The notes under the pieces: model-generated
Databases searched by the model: none
The model's input: the letters and a program-made list of their open reading frames with translations, nothing else
What the model was told of the DNA's origin: nothing
Made by a program: the position numbers and the translations under genes
In this document: piece after piece, positions 31,574-42,460 of the stretch
How positions within the stretch are numbered: the stretch's first letter is position 1
Layout of the letters: each line of letters opens with the position of its first letter
Source: Methanolinea mesophila
GTDB lineage: Archaea > Halobacteriota > Methanomicrobia > Methanomicrobiales > Methanospirillaceae
Assembly (NCBI RefSeq): GCF_017873855.1
Contig: NZ_JAGGKR010000001.1
Location: forward strand, 434,001-498,000
DNA: 64,000 nucleotides
Reading direction: 5' to 3'

Positions 31574-31980
31574 GGTTCACGAGGCTGATCTGTAGGGGAG
31601 GAGGACCGGATTTTCAACGAGTATCAGGTCCCGAATGAATTTCCGGGTTCAGAGTTGAGCATGTCGCTATTATTACCAGGTTCACGTGGAAGGAGGGTTA
31701 TAAGAATGAATTAGTAACAGGATTGATGGTGCCCTAAGAGTAAGGGTTCACGAGGAAGGCCGGTTATGAGGAGGAAAGGGCCTTGGGGGGGTCAGGAAGC
31801 TAAAAGCCAAGGTTCACGAGGAAGGCCGGTTCTGATGAGGAAGGGGCTTTGGGGGGGGGATCAGGATCCTAAAAGCCAAGGTTCACGAGGAAGGCCGGTT
31901 CTGATGAGGAAAGGGCTTTGGGGGATCAGGATCCTAAAAGCCAAGGTTCACGAGGAAGACCGGTTATGAGGAGGAAGGGT
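31574..31980. repeat. G-rich tandem repeat array (unit about 66 bp)
   Basis: Units beginning GGTTCACGAGGAAG start at 31745, 31811, 31880 and 31945 (spacing 66, 69, 65). Degenerate heads lie at 31574, 31646 and 31679. Each unit holds GGTTCACGAGGAAGGCCGGT, a purine-rich GAGGAGGAAAGGG block, a run of 5-9 G and CTAAAAGCCAA. Length differences lie mainly in the G-run, pointing to slippage. The last unit is cut short and leads straight into the ribosome binding site and ATG of the next gene. Spacing is not a multiple of three, so this is not coding. All G-runs are on one strand. Confidence 0.85.
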
Positions 31981-33294: not shown

Positions 33295-34473
33295 TCACAA
33301 ATACCAACAGAGAGGGTCGTCCCCGCCTATCTGCCCCGTCTCGTGATATGCCCTTACCCTGCACCCTCCTCCACAGGTGTCGACCGAGGGACAGCCCCTG
33401 CATTTTCCGGTAAGGATATTCGCATTGTTCCTGAATATACCGAGAACGGGATTCTCCTCGTCCCGCCACAAGGTGCTGAACGGTCGTTCGCGGACGTTCC
33501 CGATCAGAAAACCCTCCTCCTGGGCAAACTGGCAGGGATAGACATTCCCCAGGTGATCGATGTTGGCCACCCGCCGGCCCGCACTGCACCCGGCCCCCAT
33601 GCACCTGGCGAGAGTCCGGGCATGTCCACTCTCACCTTCATTGTCCTCATCCATTCTTTGCAGGATATGGACCAGATCCTGGGGAGCGTCGACGGTGAGA
33701 ATCTCCATCTCGCCCGGCTCGAGCATCCTGGCCCATAGGTACAGCAGCTCGAGCGCCGACTTCGCCTCGCCGGGGGTGAGTTGCGAGCCGTTCGCAAGTT
33801 CCCTTCCCCTTCCGCTGGGGACGAGCCAATAGAGGCAGAACCGCGGGACACCAAGGTCCCTGGCCATGCGGAGTACTTCCTCGAGCCCGGAAACGTTCTC
33901 CCTTGTCGCGGTGAACCGTATCCCGCACTTCAGGTCCGCGTCCAGGCAGTTCCGGATCCCCTGCACGGCCCGGTCGAAACTTCCCGGGACATTCCTCTGC
34001 CGGTCGTGGACCTCCGGCCCGGGCCCGTCGATGGATACGCCCGCATACTCGATACCGGTCTCTTTCAGCCGGGCCGCCACCCGGGGAGTGATCAGGGTGC
34101 CGTTGGTGCTCAGGGCCAGTTTGATCCCCTTCGCTCTGGCATGTCCGGCAAGCTCCCAGAAATCGTCCCGCAGGAGAGGTTCGCCCCCCGAGAGGAGGAT
34201 GAGGGGGACCCCCATACCGGCGAGGTCGTCGATCACGTGCATCGCCTCATTTGTCCCAAGTTCGAGCGCGGTGCCCGCCCTCGGACCAGAGGAGTTGTAA
34301 CAGTGGAGGCAGGAGAGATTGCACCGGGTGGTGAGGTTCCAGAACACCACCGGGGCATCCACCTTCGAAAATGCGAGATACCGGGAGGGGATCTCCCCGA
34401 AGGGTGCCGAACGGTGTTTGATCACCTCGCTCACTGTACCGCTCCCGTGGATCATCTGCGTTATCCGGTTCAT
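33295..34473 (-). CDS. ahbC: AhbC: radical SAM enzyme of the siroheme-to-heme b pathway
   Basis: 392 residues. Radical SAM motif Cys51-Cys55-Cys58 (CNLSCLHC), and a C-terminal SPASM-like Cys cluster (GNVYPCQF, CRGCPSVDTCGGGCR) for an auxiliary cluster. The pattern fits AhbC, which removes acetate side chains of 12,18-didecarboxysiroheme to give iron-coproporphyrin III. Identification rests on the operon, which has all four Ahb activities, and on motifs; NirJ for heme d1 is a close relative. It is the last gene of the heme operon, overlapping the gene before it by 4 nt. Confidence 0.85.
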   Translation of the reverse strand: MNRITQMIHGSGTVSEVIKHRSAPFGEIPSRYLAFSKVDAPVVFWNLTTRCNLSCLHCYNSSGPRAGTALELGTNEAMHVIDDLAGMGVPLILLSGGEPLLRDDFWELAGHARAKGIKLALSTNGTLITPRVAARLKETGIEYAGVSIDGPGPEVHDRQRNVPGSFDRAVQGIRNCLDADLKCGIRFTATRENVSGLEEVLRMARDLGVPRFCLYWLVPSGRGRELANGSQLTPGEAKSALELLYLWARMLEPGEMEILTVDAPQDLVHILQRMDEDNEGESGHARTLARCMGAGCSAGRRVANIDHLGNVYPCQFAQEEGFLIGNVRERPFSTLWRDEENPVLGIFRNNANILTGKCRGCPSVDTCGGGCRVRAYHETGQIGGDDPLCWYL

Positions 34474-34955
34474 TCCTGCTCCTTTCTGTTCCGGAGACTC
34501 CCGGTAGGCGATCTCTTGTACTCAGCCCCGCTGAACAGCACCAGGTAGGTATCTATTCCCGTGTCGGCCGCGATTTCCGCGACCTCGTTGCAGAGATCCT
34601 CTCTTCGCCGCGAATGATGGACGGTATAGAGCTCATAATCCCAGCGACCCGGGACGGGTCTCCGGCGGTAGCAGTGAGTAACTCCGGGAAACTCCGCCAC
34701 CCTTGCACCGAGCGACGACACGTCTGCCTGGTGAACATCCCATGCAACCAGCGCATTTGCAGTGATCCCGGCCTTTCGCTGGTCGATCCTCGCCCGGAAC
34801 CTCCGGATCACTCCCTGTGTGCGAAGGATCTGCAGTCTCCGGATGACCTCCGATTCCGGGATACCCGTTCTCCTTCCGATCTCCCTGTAGGGATGATCCG
34901 AGAGCGGGATCCCCCCCTCGATCTCCATCAATAGCATCCTGTCCGTGTTATCCAT
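34470..34955 (-). CDS. ahbB: AhbB-type siroheme decarboxylase subunit
   Basis: 161 residues from ATG 34955; the frame extends to 34988 but ATG 34955 overlaps the preceding stop by 8 nt. Lrp/AsnC-like fold: N-terminal winged helix (IGRRTGIPESEVIRRLQIL) and C-terminal ferredoxin-like domain with THCYRRRPVPGRWDYELYTV, the signature seen in NirG/H and AhbB. With AhbA it decarboxylates siroheme at C12 and C18. The A/B labels follow this motif and may be exchanged. It lies between ahbA and ahbC in the operon. Confidence 0.82.
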   Translation of the reverse strand: MDNTDRMLLMEIEGGIPLSDHPYREIGRRTGIPESEVIRRLQILRTQGVIRRFRARIDQRKAGITANALVAWDVHQADVSSLGARVAEFPGVTHCYRRRPVPGRWDYELYTVHHSRRREDLCNEVAEIAADTGIDTYLVLFSGAEYKRSPTGSLRNRKEQE

Positions 34956-35436
34956 GTTGCTCGTCTCCGTCGAACCTGAACCGCACATCTACCTTGTACC
35001 GGTCGAGAGTGACCAGGTTGAGCACCTTTTCGTCGGGTAGCCCGGTCTTCGCGATGATCTCCCCCACCAGCCTGACGCATTCGTCCTCGTCCCGGGTGCT
35101 GAGCGTGAACCATACGTTGTAGTCGTGCTCCCGCTGGTAATTATGGGAGACCTGGGGATATTCGTTGATTATCGTCACCACCCGGGGAATATCGCATGCA
35201 GGCACCTGCATTGCCACGAGGGTCGAATACCGGAGTCCAATCTTCCCGGTCTCGAGAATGGGGGAGATGCTCCGGATTATTCCGCGGGACTGGAGATCCC
35301 GGACCCTGGAGAGCACTTCGCTGCCGGGCAGTCCGAGTCTCCCGCCGAGCGCATCCCATGGTGACGGGATAAGGGGGAATTCCTCCTGGAGCAGGTCGAG
35401 AACCTTCAGGTCGACCGGATCAGGGAATTGTTTCAT
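34948..35436 (-). CDS. ahbA: AhbA-type siroheme decarboxylase subunit
   Basis: 162 residues. N-terminal winged helix (LGGRLGLPGSEVLSRVRDLQ) and a C-terminal domain with SHNYQREHDYNVWFTL, the motif of the NirD/L and AhbA group. It is expected to form a heterodimer with the next gene product and decarboxylate siroheme to 12,18-didecarboxysiroheme. Starts overlap the ahbD stop by 4 nt. AhbA-like proteins look like Lrp regulators, but the strict neighbourhood with two heme radical SAM enzymes favours the enzyme over a regulator. Confidence 0.82.
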   Translation of the reverse strand: MKQFPDPVDLKVLDLLQEEFPLIPSPWDALGGRLGLPGSEVLSRVRDLQSRGIIRSISPILETGKIGLRYSTLVAMQVPACDIPRVVTIINEYPQVSHNYQREHDYNVWFTLSTRDEDECVRLVGEIIAKTGLPDEKVLNLVTLDRYKVDVRFRFDGDEQHG

Positions 35437-36533
35437 GATATCGGCCCCTTTTCGTCACCCGGAATATACGGGCACCAGGGCTCCTCGTCGAGATAGTGAT
35501 CCCCGGAAAGGGATGATCCATGTGGGGTGATCCGGCCGCTATTATTCCACAAGCCGTAGGCCCGTGCCCTGCATCCCCCGCAAAGACGCCTGTACTCGCA
35601 CCTTCCACATTTCCCCCGGAGCCTCGTGAAATCCCTGAGATCCCGGAGTATCTCTGACCGGTACCATATCTCCCTGAAAGGCGTCGAAAGGATATTGCCG
35701 CAGCTGATCGGAAGATACGGGCATGGAGTGACGTCTCCGGTCGGCGTGATCCGGCAATAACTCTTCCCGGCGATGCATCCTCTCCCCCATTCTTCAAGCG
35801 GAAGTCCCATCTTCCGCGCGATCCGGATGAACTGCGGGGCACACGTGGGTCGGATGTGCACACCTGGCGCATTGATCGCGAGCACCTCGCGGATCATCGT
35901 TTCATACATTGCGGGAGTAACGTCCGTCATGGTCCCCCCCCTTCCGGTCGGCACCAGGAAGAAGACCTGGAAATCAGTGACTCCGAGGTTCCTCCCCATA
36001 GATATGATATCATGGATCTCCCGGAAGTTCTCCCAGGTGACGGTAGTATGGATCTGGACTCCAAGCCCCGCTCTGACCGAACCCCTGACTGCCTCGACCG
36101 CTTTCCCGAAGGCGCCCTCAACCCCGCGGAACCCGTCGTGAACTTCGGGCGAGCAGGAATCCAGGCTGATTGCTATCTTTTTCAACCCGGCCCGACGAAG
36201 CTTGGCTGCCATATCTTCGTCGACGAGGTACCCGCAGCTGCCCATTACCATTCGAAGACCTCGTCCGGTTCCGAACCTTATGATCTCGAAGATATCTTCT
36301 CTCATCGTAGGTTCCCCCCCGCTCAGGATTACCACAGGACGCGAGAGAGATATTATCCGTTCAATCACCTCTTCCGCTTCGGTCGTGGAGAGTTCTCCCT
36401 GAACGGGGTCTCCTGCAGAGATATAACAATGCGGGCATTTCAGCATGCACCTCGTGGTAAGATTCCATGAAATTATGCGGGGCGCTTCAGGGGGTTGTCC
36501 TAATTCCACGGGACCATCATAACCGGGATGCAT
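35433..36533 (-). CDS. ahbD: AhbD: heme b synthase (radical SAM)
   Basis: 366 residues. Radical SAM Cys29-Cys33-Cys36 (CMLKCPHC) and a SPASM-like C-terminus (CGRCEYRRLCGGCRARAYG, plus WCPY at the end). AhbD oxidatively decarboxylates two propionates of iron-coproporphyrin III to vinyl groups, yielding heme b. AhbC and AhbD are homologous; this one is assigned D because its C-terminus and its position before ahbA match known archaeal clusters, though exchange is possible. The start overlaps the end of the permease gene by 17 nt. Confidence 0.82.
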   Translation of the reverse strand: MHPGYDGPVELGQPPEAPRIISWNLTTRCMLKCPHCYISAGDPVQGELSTTEAEEVIERIISLSRPVVILSGGEPTMREDIFEIIRFGTGRGLRMVMGSCGYLVDEDMAAKLRRAGLKKIAISLDSCSPEVHDGFRGVEGAFGKAVEAVRGSVRAGLGVQIHTTVTWENFREIHDIISMGRNLGVTDFQVFFLVPTGRGGTMTDVTPAMYETMIREVLAINAPGVHIRPTCAPQFIRIARKMGLPLEEWGRGCIAGKSYCRITPTGDVTPCPYLPISCGNILSTPFREIWYRSEILRDLRDFTRLRGKCGRCEYRRLCGGCRARAYGLWNNSGRITPHGSSLSGDHYLDEEPWCPYIPGDEKGPIS

Positions 36534-37116
36534 ACATCACCACTCCCAGGTATGCTATCCCTACAACTACAAACGGGATAATCCCTGTCACGGTTAATTC
36601 GGCGGCTCCTATCACATACCCCATCGGGAAAAGCGCTCCTACCGGGTTCTGGGTTATCCCAAGGAGGACCAGAGGGAGCGTAACGAGTATTGCGAAGAGA
36701 TGGACGCTCCCCAGGGTCCTGGCGACAAGCCCGACTAATGTGCCACTAATCGCCGCGAGAATAAGGGAGAGTTCGGCGAAGGGAATGATCAGCGCGCCTT
36801 CGAAGAATGCACCGGCAAGCATCGCAGGCAGAAACTGGGCAGTATAGAGCAGCACGTAATTTGCAGTATATGCCGAAAAAATCTCATTCTTCGGTCGCTC
36901 GCTTACCACAAGACGGCGGAACATCCCGCTTAGTCTCAGTTTCACAAGATTGATCGCCGTTCCGGCGACCACTACGAAGATGAGCAGCACTGTGAGAACC
37001 AGCCCGGAATATCCCCATAACCCTGCCACCAGGACCGCGGCTGCCGGGACGATCATCCTCCCCGCCAATCGCAGGGGATGGCCAGTGTACTCTTTCATCA
37101 GCGGGGTCCACATCAT
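36517..37116 (-). CDS. ABC-type permease subunit of the heme operon
   Basis: 199 residues, polytopic with about five to six helices (about 24-55, 80-105, 108-150, 155-175, 178-198). It overlaps the ATPase gene by 4 nt and the heme synthase gene by 17 nt. The pairing of ATPase and small permease suggests an ABC-2-type exporter, possibly for heme or a heme precursor. It is smaller than most ABC-2 permeases and no characteristic cytochrome c maturation (CcmB/C) motif such as WWD is visible. Function is inferred from context. Confidence 0.75.
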   Translation of the reverse strand: MMWTPLMKEYTGHPLRLAGRMIVPAAAVLVAGLWGYSGLVLTVLLIFVVVAGTAINLVKLRLSGMFRRLVVSERPKNEIFSAYTANYVLLYTAQFLPAMLAGAFFEGALIIPFAELSLILAAISGTLVGLVARTLGSVHLFAILVTLPLVLLGITQNPVGALFPMGYVIGAAELTVTGIIPFVVVGIAYLGVVMYASRL

Positions 37117-38078
37117 CGCTTTTCGAACCTCGTTCTGGCTTCATCTACTACCGATACGGTGATCCGCGAATAGCCTTTATCCCGGGCATATTTTTCCACA
37201 AGTTTCCTTACCATCGGCCGGACGAATGCCGGAGCCCGGGAGACCTTTTCCTCTGCATCGCGGGTCCAGAACTCGTCTGTTGCCCCGGGATCACCGAATA
37301 CCTCGATGGTGCGTGGTACGCCGAACGGGAGCATCTTGGCAATAAGCGGGGGAAGATCCTCGATCCGTTCCAGGTGCTCGGTGAAAACCTGATCCCCGGT
37401 CGAGATCGTGACCGGGATGAGATCCTGCTCAAGCTCGGTGACGGAGCCGACCTCCTTCAGTCCTTCCCCGGTCAGGTGAAAAATCCGGTCTCCGTGGCGG
37501 ATTTCACTTATCCTGTTCGTCCCGTAGAGAACCGCGGCCCCCTCCCGGGCCCGTTCCCCGGCAAGCGAGAAGAAACGGGTTCTTGTATCGGAATCAAGTC
37601 CCAGTGACGGTTCGTCATACAGGAGGACCGGCTTTCCGCTTACAAGGGATTCGGCGAGCATGAGCTTGCGCTTCATCCCCAGGGAATAGCTCCCGGCAGG
37701 ACCCGAGGGGTCCAGGTCAAGGATCTTGAAAATCCGGTCGGAATCGTCCAGTTTCGTCAGGGCGTATATTTTTTTGAAAAATTCGAGATTGTCCCATCCG
37801 TTCACGTTCTCGAAATGGGAATTTTCATCGAAAACCGGAAAAATCCTGGCCCTGACGGTCTCCCGTTCGCGGTCCCCGTCGGCTCCGAGGATCAGGAAAC
37901 GTCCGCCCGAGGGGCGGCAGGTCGTTGAAAGGACGTTGAATAATGTCGATTTTCCCGTACCATTCTTTCCATAGATACAGCAGATCTCCCCGGGGTCAAC
38001 GGTGAAGGTGAGATCCCTGACTCCCTTCCCGCCGGGATACGTGTAAGCCAGGCTTTCCACGGCCACCGCAGGGATCAT
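37113..38078 (-). CDS. ABC transporter ATPase fused to a PCP_red-like domain
   Basis: 321 residues from ATG 38078, whose ATGA overlaps the upstream stop. ABC ATPase domain about 1-215: Walker A GKNGTGKST (37-45), signature YSLGMKRK (131-138), Walker B VLLYDEPS (151-158). A connector (about 216-265) leads to residues 268-321, which match the small PCP_red domain from the C-terminus of the light-independent protochlorophyllide reductase subunit (FW..DAEEKVSRAPAFVRPM, then EKYARDKGYSRITV). This domain on an ABC ATPase is not known to me. It may sense or bind a tetrapyrrole or iron-sulfur ligand to gate transport. Confidence 0.82.
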   Translation of the reverse strand: MIPAVAVESLAYTYPGGKGVRDLTFTVDPGEICCIYGKNGTGKSTLFNVLSTTCRPSGGRFLILGADGDRERETVRARIFPVFDENSHFENVNGWDNLEFFKKIYALTKLDDSDRIFKILDLDPSGPAGSYSLGMKRKLMLAESLVSGKPVLLYDEPSLGLDSDTRTRFFSLAGERAREGAAVLYGTNRISEIRHGDRIFHLTGEGLKEVGSVTELEQDLIPVTISTGDQVFTEHLERIEDLPPLIAKMLPFGVPRTIEVFGDPGATDEFWTRDAEEKVSRAPAFVRPMVRKLVEKYARDKGYSRITVSVVDEARTRFEKR

Positions 38079-39280
38079 ATCCCGAATTTCTCCCTCGCGC
38101 CGTCCATTATCTCGGGAGTGATGATAAAAACCCCAAGCTCGCGTGCGTACCGTTCTATCGCAAGCACCGCCATACTCCGGGCGAAGGGAGGTACATTCTC
38201 GATACGGGCACTGGCCTCCTCGGTCCACTCGAGTGACCCGCCTGCGGGGCAGGGAACGGAAGCAGGCTCACCTGAGGGGATCTTCCCCGGGATTTGTGCC
38301 CATCCACCGACTACCAGGACGTTCGCACCGGTATTCCTCACCACCCTTTCAGCTGTTGATCCGATATCGGAATAGCTGCCCTTGTGCATACCGGAACGGC
38401 TCACTACCACAAGGTCATACCCGCCCTGCTCCGCTTCACGGCAGATCTCGTTCCAGGGCACGCCTTCTTTCCGCACCGGATTCACCCGCGAACATCCCGA
38501 GTCGCGAGCGACCTCACACCCCCGGTCCAGATATTTCCGGTAAAGTTCGGCGAGGCTCCGATCGATTATGGTGTTGTGGAGCGTTTCCTGCTCGTTGAAC
38601 CTGAACACCTTGCCCGCCTCCTCGGAAAGGACCCGGGAGAGGAGGGAGAATACCGTGCGGTGCAACTGGGGGTTGAAGACCGATATGAGCGTGACCTCCC
38701 CGTTCATCATCGATGCGAGTCCTGAGCCTGTCTTCACGGCTCCGAAGGACTCCTCGCTCCCGTCAATCCCGACAAGAACCTTCCGGGGTATCCTGTCGTT
38801 CCTGATTATCAGGAGGTCGCACCCCGCGTGGCGGAGCACGGATGAAGCGGTTCCGCCGAGCGTGCGCGTCCCCTCTACCGTGCCAAGCCCTTGTGCACCC
38901 ATGATGAAGAGGTCATGACTTCTGGTCGCTTCGATCAGGATATCCGCGTTTTTTCCGTCTTTCAGGACCTCTCTCAACGGTATCTTCTCACCGGCACACT
39001 TCTCCGAGAGTCCCTTCATGTATTCAAGAGAGATTATCTCCAGCCCCCGTTCGATCAGGACCGAATGGATCCTTCTCTGGTAGTCCAGCTGGTCCTCATC
39101 CTGGTAGCGGGGGGGGAGGTAGGGCTCCAGTGCCCCGAATCTCGCGCGATGAAATCTTCCCGAATAGACATGATATCCCGAAACAGCCGCATGGAACTGT
39201 TTTGCAATCTCCACCCCGATCGTTTCGGAAGCATGAGAGCACGGGGATTTGTCCACTGCGATCGCGATATCACTGTACAT
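38075..39280 (-). CDS. Tandem universal-stress-protein with C-terminal PCP_red-like domain
   Basis: 401 residues from ATG 39280. Two UspA-type nucleotide-binding domains (about 1-162 and 164-328), with the pattern GAQGLG..GGTASSVLRH in the first and SRSGM..GSTAERVVRN in the second. A linker and a PCP_red-like domain follow (about 351-401: EWTEEASARIENVPPFARSM, then ERYARELGVFIITP). The same tail is found on the next gene product. This is the first gene of the seven-gene heme operon, overlapping the ATPase gene by 4 nt. Possible role: regulator or carrier linking nucleotide state to heme handling; inference only. Confidence 0.82.
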   Translation of the reverse strand: MYSDIAIAVDKSPCSHASETIGVEIAKQFHAAVSGYHVYSGRFHRARFGALEPYLPPRYQDEDQLDYQRRIHSVLIERGLEIISLEYMKGLSEKCAGEKIPLREVLKDGKNADILIEATRSHDLFIMGAQGLGTVEGTRTLGGTASSVLRHAGCDLLIIRNDRIPRKVLVGIDGSEESFGAVKTGSGLASMMNGEVTLISVFNPQLHRTVFSLLSRVLSEEAGKVFRFNEQETLHNTIIDRSLAELYRKYLDRGCEVARDSGCSRVNPVRKEGVPWNEICREAEQGGYDLVVVSRSGMHKGSYSDIGSTAERVVRNTGANVLVVGGWAQIPGKIPSGEPASVPCPAGGSLEWTEEASARIENVPPFARSMAVLAIERYARELGVFIITPEIMDGAREKFGI

Positions 39281-40903: not shown

Positions 40904-42460
40904 ATGAAACAGATATACGGCTATCTCATCGCATTGGCCATATTCCTTATAATACTCGTGTTCTTTATCGTTCCCCAGCAGGGGGGACTGATATCGTCCA
41001 CTCAGTTGAATGCCGATGCGCTGGGGCAGGTACCTTCGCAATACAACGAGACATTGCCTATCCAGGAGGTGGATATTTCAAGTTCCGGACGGTCAATCTT
41101 CATCGCGTTCGTGATGCTTGCCCACGTCCTGTTTGCCAACCTTCACCTGGGAGGGGCCTGGGTGGCTGCCGGGACCGAATCGATCTACCTTAAAACCAAA
41201 AAAACCAGATATAAACGACTGGCGCGTTCGATTACGCTGTTCAACGTAATCCTCTTCTCTGCGGGAGCGACCTTCGCCGTCGGAGGGGTCTTATTCTTCA
41301 TCTCGCTCTTTCCCACGTTCGCCTCGGAGGCATTCCACATCTACTGGTGGCCACTGCTCGCGGAGGCCATCACCTTCGGGCTGGAAATTTTTTTCCTTTA
41401 TACCTACTGGTTCGCGTGGGATAAGATAAGCAACAAATGGCACCAGTTCCTTGGTTACGCATATGCGGTAGACGTATTCGCCCAGACCCTTCTGATCAAC
41501 ACGCTTGCGTCCGGGATGCTCACCCCCGGCGGGACCGCCATCGACTGGAACACCTCCGCGGGTCTTTTTACCATGCCCTTAAGTGTTCTCTCCGGCTGGT
41601 GGTTCAATGCCACGACCTGGATATTACAGTTCCATCGGCTTGCGGCGGCGGTGTCATACTTCGGGTTCCTGCTCGCGATGCTCGCGATGTTCCATTACCT
41701 TGACCGGAAGGACAAACCATCAAAGACCTATTGGGATCTTGTGGGGTCATACGGGCTCAGTTTCGGATTGCTGGGATTGATCTTCCAGCCATTGCTCGGG
41801 TTGATCTACATGAGCACGATCTTTCACGCGCAGCCCGGTGCCTTCGCAAGCATCATGCTTGCAAATCGTGCGTGGGAGATGGTCCTGATGGTGGGACTGC
41901 TCTCGTTCCTCTTTATCGCGTCGATCCTCTACCTCTACGACCGAAAGGAACGGATACTCACCGAAGTCGGCAACGAGCGCCTTCACCGGTTGTTCAAGCT
42001 CTTCATCGTGATCGCGTCCGTGGCCGGGTTTATCCTCGTCCAGCCCTATACCATGGATTTCGGGGTGAATCCTCTGGGATACATGAGCTACAAGCTCGTA
42101 GCGCTCTTCGTCCTCATCGTAATCGGGGCAATCGTCCTGGTTATTGACCTGGTGATGCTTCGGGAACCTACCAAAATGGAATGGGGCAACCTCTCGTCGG
42201 TTTCACGCAGCTATGCACTGATTGCCGGCGTCCTGGGCATGTGGATCGTGATTGTCATGGGCTTTGTCCGCGAATCGGCACGGTCTCCATGGACGATATA
42301 TGGGATTGTCCCGGTCCCGGGAGGGCAGGCATACCCTACCCCAATCCCCGTGGCGCAGATATTCGGGGTCTGGTTCATCATCACCGTGATGACCATCGCC
42401 ATATTCTGGTTCACCTCGAGGGTCACCGCCGAACATCCTGAAGAAGCGGAGAAGATCTAG
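40904..42460 (+). CDS. Cytochrome bd subunit I homologue (CydA-like) without CydB
   Basis: 518 residues, about nine to ten membrane helices. Compared with E. coli CydA from memory: AHVLFANLHLGG carries His74 at the place of the heme b595 ligand His19. PLLAEAITFGLEIFF with Glu154/Glu161 corresponds to the E99/E107 region. ILQFHRLAAAV gives His244 (His186, heme b558), RAWEMVLMVG a Met at the Met393 position, and RESARSPWTIYG the conserved GRQPW segment. An additional N-terminal helix (8-23) and the near absence of the quinol-binding Q-loop are unusual. No cydB is nearby; a 51-aa single-helix gene follows 12 nt later. Probably a heme b membrane protein for electron transfer or gas chemistry. Confidence 0.85.
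   Translation: MKQIYGYLIALAIFLIILVFFIVPQQGGLISSTQLNADALGQVPSQYNETLPIQEVDISSSGRSIFIAFVMLAHVLFANLHLGGAWVAAGTESIYLKTKKTRYKRLARSITLFNVILFSAGATFAVGGVLFFISLFPTFASEAFHIYWWPLLAEAITFGLEIFFLYTYWFAWDKISNKWHQFLGYAYAVDVFAQTLLINTLASGMLTPGGTAIDWNTSAGLFTMPLSVLSGWWFNATTWILQFHRLAAAVSYFGFLLAMLAMFHYLDRKDKPSKTYWDLVGSYGLSFGLLGLIFQPLLGLIYMSTIFHAQPGAFASIMLANRAWEMVLMVGLLSFLFIASILYLYDRKERILTEVGNERLHRLFKLFIVIASVAGFILVQPYTMDFGVNPLGYMSYKLVALFVLIVIGAIVLVIDLVMLREPTKMEWGNLSSVSRSYALIAGVLGMWIVIVMGFVRESARSPWTIYGIVPVPGGQAYPTPIPVAQIFGVWFIITVMTIAIFWFTSRVTAEHPEEAEKI

Follow-up and report, generated by a model that had tools for sequence, protein, structure and literature searches.

Results

An overlapping operon joins heme b synthesis genes to an ABC transporter and a tandem Usp protein

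The window analyzed here, a stretch of 64,000 nucleotides from the Methanomicrobiales methanogen Methanolinea mesophila, carries seven minus-strand genes that overlap one another by 4, 4, 17, 4, 8 and 4 nt, and all seven begin with ATG. Table 1 presents the genes with their family assignments, which were made with Pfam and NCBIfam. The initial annotation had described a seven-gene overlapping operon on the minus strand, and its coordinates and all six overlaps were reproduced. Its account of the genes likewise stands but is incomplete, in that it overlooked the PCP_red domains of the Usp protein and the ABC ATPase, as well as a nearby gene for CydA, which lies one gene beyond the operon. At a separate position, a tandem repeat with a 69-bp unit in 3.5 copies (31745-31976) overlaps a small ORF between a PNPOx-like gene and a radical SAM gene.

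Table 1. Coordinates of the operon genes, their PCP_red domains and the neighboring CydA gene in the window.
Feature	Position	Strand	Supporting match
Tandem Usp with C-terminal PCP_red, 401 aa	38075..39280	-	PF00582 in two stretches, 7e-31; PF08369, 5e-13
PCP_red of Usp	38093..38227	-	PF08369, over cut-off in genome-wide search
ABC ATPase with C-terminal PCP_red, 321 aa	37113..38078	-	PF00005; PF08369, 2.2e-17
PCP_red of ABC ATPase	37134..37268	-	PF08369, 67 bits in genome-wide search
Small ABC-2 type permease, 199 aa	36517..37116	-	Profile of trio permeases, E 5.8e-9
AhbD-like radical SAM/SPASM (heme synthase)	35433..36533	-	NirJ2, 333 bits; AhbD, 325 bits
AhbA, siroheme decarboxylase subunit	34948..35436	-	NF040708, 125.6 bits (cut-off 140)
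AhbB, siroheme decarboxylase subunit	34470..34955	-	NF040707, 160 bits (cut-off 125)
AhbC-like radical SAM/SPASM	33295..34473	-	NirJ1, 312 bits; AhbC, 302 bits
CydA-like bd cytochrome subunit, probable heme client	40904..42460	+	PF01654, 2e-26

Complete ahb gene sets recur in Methanomicrobiales

AhbA-D convert siroheme to heme b. Inspection of the window reveals the siroheme decarboxylase pair, with AhbB over its curated cut-off and AhbA slightly under. For the two radical SAM/SPASM proteins, NirJ1/AhbC and NirJ2/AhbD are by far the best models, and the scores fall under the strict equivalog cut-offs of 650 bits for AhbC and 500 bits for AhbD, so that these labels are given on the basis of best family and operon context. 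Siroheme supply is represented in the same genome by a SirC-type dehydrogenase that scores over the TIGR01470 cut-off (G000:C1:2268436-2268990).

A census of 199 Methanomicrobiales genomes found AhbB over cut-off in 71, and in all 30 AhbB loci of the order that were inspected (L088-L117, the window's own included) the D-A-B-C set is complete and in the same order. That constancy, together with the recurrence of Usp, ATPase and permease genes across phyla described below, argues that the operon is beyond chance. These results run against a survey from 2021, which covered 326 genomes and reported AhbABCD in 0 of 32 Methanomicrobiales (PMC8351635), and the initial annotation's view of heme use as rare among methanogens does not apply to this order. 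Homologues of AhbA, B, C and D also share one operon in Methanosarcina barkeri and in sulfate reducers. In the window, in contrast to the M. barkeri operon, the ahb genes are preceded by the trio of Usp, ATPase and permease; the paper describing the M. barkeri genes mentions no transporter (PMC3942049). The initial annotation had considered a transport or regulation module within an Ahb operon to be undescribed, and our literature search likewise found no paper describing one.

PCP_red ties the Usp protein and the ATPase to tetrapyrrole chemistry

PCP_red (PF08369, gathering score 32.5) lies at the C-terminus of both the Usp protein (49.3 bits) and the ATPase (63.2 bits; 67 bits in the genome-wide search), and a genome-wide search with PF08369 found no third copy in the window's genome. 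A profile of the Usp, ATPase and radical SAM tails was compared with the PDB and matched the C-terminus of BchB/ChlB and the stand-alone protein Asr4154, with E values of 4e-12 to 3e-16; no other match was convincing. BchB/ChlB of dark-operative protochlorophyllide reductase thus carries the same C-terminal PCP_red as the Usp protein and the ATPase (2kru, 2ynm, 3aek), whereas its nitrogenase-like catalytic body is absent from both, such that the tail alone is common. Consistent with this, BchB models are matched by the Usp protein and the ATPase over the tail only, where Usp residues 338-400 correspond to model positions 472-534. The presence of PCP_red on both proteins ties them to tetrapyrrole chemistry independently of gene position.

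Literature searches found no text establishing a role for PCP_red, even in BchB, no paper linking Usp and PCP_red with heme, and nothing relevant on PCP_red, or on Usp with protochlorophyllide reductase and radical SAM. In other archaea and in an unrelated context, PCP_red stands at the start of small cysteine-rich proteins (L009:1123-1641, L012:1495-1995 and L013:1486-2007). The matches behind L010 and L011 were left out, as mechanical ORF picking favored a Top6A-like gene, and those behind L014-L016, which score below cut-off, were set aside.

The trio resembles the heme transporters CydDC and CcmAB and belongs to neither family

The Usp protein comprises two Usp domains with the Usp fold, and its predicted model (pLDDT 89) matches the ATP-bound tandem Usp 3ab8 with a TMt of 0.85. 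Five histidines (H37, H44, H72, H207 and H235) are invariant in a 29-row alignment. These histidines, combined with a fold that matches ATP-bound tandem Usps, suggest that the protein could act as a holder or gate for heme.

Across the ATPase family, Walker A and the YSxGM signature are kept, as is Walker B where readable. Every readable member, the window's included, has Asn in place of the H-loop His (xTN[DR] or xSND), and ATP turnover may be unusual given this substitution. The top-scoring model for the window ATPase is the drug exporter drrA. A fusion of ATPase and PCP_red initially appeared unique to the window's genome, an idea that was dropped because a genome from another family of the order carries one (L157/G414). 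That protein is also 321 aa long, with 58% identity to the window ATPase overall and 61% over PCP_red, and the adjoining permease is 57% identical to the window permease.

The permease gives only a weak match to ABC2_membrane_3 in Pfam. Its predicted model is of modest confidence (pLDDT 78) and weakly matches ABC-2 folds (ABCG25, NosY, Wzm). Size and layout had suggested CcmB, an assignment that was rejected in favor of these general ABC-2 matches; by Pfam, the permeases of the window, L007 and L062 match ABC2_membrane_3 and none matches CcmB.

Two known systems invite comparison. CydDC is the ABC heme transporter required for cytochrome bd maturation in E. coli (PMC10374445), and the trio likewise links ABC transport to a bd-type cytochrome, with heme handling by the trio as a proposal. 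CydDC consists of two half-transporters with fused membrane and ATPase parts, whereas the window encodes the ATPase and permease separately; unlike CydDC, its ATPase carries PCP_red and has a Usp partner, and no CydB is present. CcmB is a heme translocase (PMC11868835), and CcmAB is heme-linked and, like the trio, pairs a separate ATPase with a small permease (about 200-240 aa). In contrast to CcmAB, the window permease is missed by the CcmB model, drrA is a better-scoring model for the ATPase than ccmA, and the operon holds no other Ccm genes. We propose that the module may work like CydDC or CcmAB while being a member of neither.

The trio follows CydA rather than heme synthesis

CydB (PF02322) was sought in six CydA-encoding genomes, namely the window's and those of five relatives, and is absent from all of them, which indicates a CydB-less bd-type cytochrome and not a canonical CydA plus CydB quinol oxidase. 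An alignment of 40 rows shows H74, H180 and H244 of CydA to be invariant; the counterpart of H74 in Geobacillus CydA is the N-terminal conserved His, a heme ligand. The CydA proteins of all these archaea fall into a single group. CydA without CydB is also a feature of the CydAA'-type bd oxygen reductases, that is to say the OR-N family (PMC10839748). As in that type, two CydA paralogues adjoin in three relatives (G436, G474 and G472), whereas the window's genome has a single CydA.

Each of the 199 genomes was then scored for the three markers, where PCP_red occurs in 12 and CydA in 10. Nine of the 10 CydA genomes encode PCP_red (Fisher p = 2e-12, ancestry ignored) and all 10 encode AhbB, with positives confined to four genera and mostly draft genomes. 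From the other side, AhbB is found in 10 of the 12 PCP_red genomes (p = 7e-4, ancestry ignored), and PCP_red in only 10 of the 71 AhbB genomes. That is to say, PCP_red tracks CydA far more closely than it tracks ahb. The initial annotation had offered that the trio acts on heme or an intermediate, or regulates the pathway. Its tie to heme is borne out; because the trio follows the heme consumer CydA and not heme synthesis, a role in delivery or maturation is a better fit than one in regulating the Ahb pathway. Individual genomes depart from the pattern: G045 (99% complete) has the trio but lacks CydA and any good AhbB, G457 combines the trio and ahb genes with no CydA match, and G460 has CydA and ahb genes, on a short contig, with no PCP_red match.

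The same census bears on another reading, in which the trio is a safety valve for heme or porphyrin: the Usp protein would detect an excess of heme or Fe-coproporphyrin, and its expulsion by the ABC-2 exporter would guard the cell against the free heme that is produced for CydA. The standing of a drug exporter as the best-scoring ATPase model and the same co-occurrence with heme genes are both compatible with such a role. However, 61 of the 71 AhbB genomes lack a PCP_red match, and the module tracks CydA and not heme synthesis, such that we regard a safety valve as unlikely.

Gene order in relatives was inspected for the trio beside ahb, whose absence from all relatives the initial annotation had named as counter-evidence. 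The order Usp-ABC-permease-D-A-B-C in G411 (L146) is identical to that of the window, and trio and ahb genes lie within one island in G479 (L148) and G436 (L145), so that the counter-evidence named by the initial annotation does not hold. In the one-contig genome G436, ahb, CydA and the trio occupy ~15 kb of one strand in the order cupredoxin, AhbD-A-B-C, cupredoxin, CydA, CydA', a sugar-dehydrogenase/fasciclin protein, Usp-PCP_red, ABC, permease and a heme-type radical SAM protein. In the Usp tree, the window protein groups with L147, a second copy in G411 (support 100/100), whereas the Usp of the G411 operon (L066) stands elsewhere. Both the window protein and L147 have long branches, which leaves their exact placement unsure. 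At least two changes of archaeal label are required by branches with good support. The same operon layout with two Usp subtypes, in the window and G411, argues for a functional tie, and the tree suggests that Usp-ABC-permease-D-A-B-C may have been assembled repeatedly, as the Usps come from two separate clades.

In relatives, ahb and CydA are flanked by cupredoxin-like proteins (L145:1652-2524, L145:6192-6920 and L007:3570-4646), which could serve as an electron donor to CydA. No such protein was found in the window itself.

Usp-PCP_red proteins accompany heme genes across bacteria and archaea

One scan of named genomes yielded 71 loci with Usp relatives, of which 65 had a usable Usp. These loci come from Myxococcota and other 'Deltaproteobacteria', Rokubacteria, Chloroflexota, Acidobacteriota, Nitrospinota, Planctomycetota, Borrarchaeum and Methanomicrobiales, and some of the Usp proteins carry five or six PCP_red stretches. 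A heme-type radical SAM gene lies within 3.5 kb in 35 of the 65 loci, with PCP_red on the radical SAM protein itself in 28 of these; CydA lies within 7 kb in 24 and the ABC ATPase within 1.5 kb in 15. At least one counted feature (heme-type radical SAM, CydA-like cytochrome and/or ABC exporter) is near the Usp in 55 of the 65. Usp-ABC-permease is also the gene order found in Methanoculleus, Methanoregulaceae, Borrarchaeum, Chloroflexota, Bacillota and Planctomycetota, and the trio is a conserved module. Many bacteria have a pair of Usp and radical SAM genes with no ABC exporter nearby.

Two further observations concern these neighborhoods. In Nitrospinota and Myxococcota, heme-type radical SAM proteins bear between one and three C-terminal PCP_red domains (L049:6478-8295, L027:11075-12754 and L022:2286-3509). 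Between CydA and Usp, there is also a conserved uncharacterized protein of ~230 aa (L062:9313-9999, L046:9303-9998 and L086:9324-10001), for which a single member gives a weak PNPOx_N match.

Usp proteins are commonly linked to stress. The transporter might accordingly move a thiol or other small molecule with Usp as a general redox or oxygen-stress regulator, where linkage to ahb and CydA would reflect only a shared need under oxygen, and the cupredoxins in the islands accord with this. It is rather improbable in our judgment, as it leaves unexplained the PCP_red found on the Usp protein, the ATPase and the heme-type radical SAM proteins of the same neighborhoods. Least probable is that the proteins help make a modified heme (e.g., heme d or a variant) destined for oxidases of the CydA type and others, in which case PCP_red would present the substrate to radical SAM enzymes: a tetrapyrrole enzyme is already known to carry PCP_red, the domain occurs on the radical SAM protein in those 28 loci, and Methanoculleus-type islands have an extra heme-type radical SAM gene beside the permease, but the window operon has none beyond AhbC and AhbD, and an ABC exporter is unexpected for cofactor modification.

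Discussion

Domains, gene order, conservation and co-occurrence with CydA are directly established for the module. The reading we favor, to which we give an even chance of being correct, is that the operon supplies heme to, and loads it into, a bd-type cytochrome built from CydA without CydB. AhbA-D would make heme b from siroheme and, in an ATP-dependent step in the cytoplasm, the tandem Usp with its PCP_red tail would retain or gate either heme or a late intermediate. The PCP_red tails of the Usp protein and the ATPase may touch the tetrapyrrole directly, or may dock the two proteins together. Transport by the ATPase and the small ABC-2 permease would follow, bringing heme into the membrane or across it for uptake there by CydA. 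Heme binding by the module, the direction of transport and delivery to CydA are steps that we infer.

A broader and more tentative possibility extends beyond this operon, which we consider rather less than evenly probable. PCP_red, the tag also present in BchB, could be a tetrapyrrole-handling tag of an undescribed bacterial and archaeal heme trafficking system, in which a Usp carrier, a heme-type radical SAM protein and an ABC-2 exporter load CydB-less bd-type and other terminal oxidases.

Heme delivery to bd-type cytochromes outside CydDC is poorly understood, and the module gives three testable proteins, together with a functional hint for PCP_red, an uncharacterized domain that chlorophyll synthesis also uses. 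For an order thought to be without heme synthesis, the findings suggest that a gene island, largely complete in itself, enables methanogens to assemble a cytochrome that reduces oxygen.
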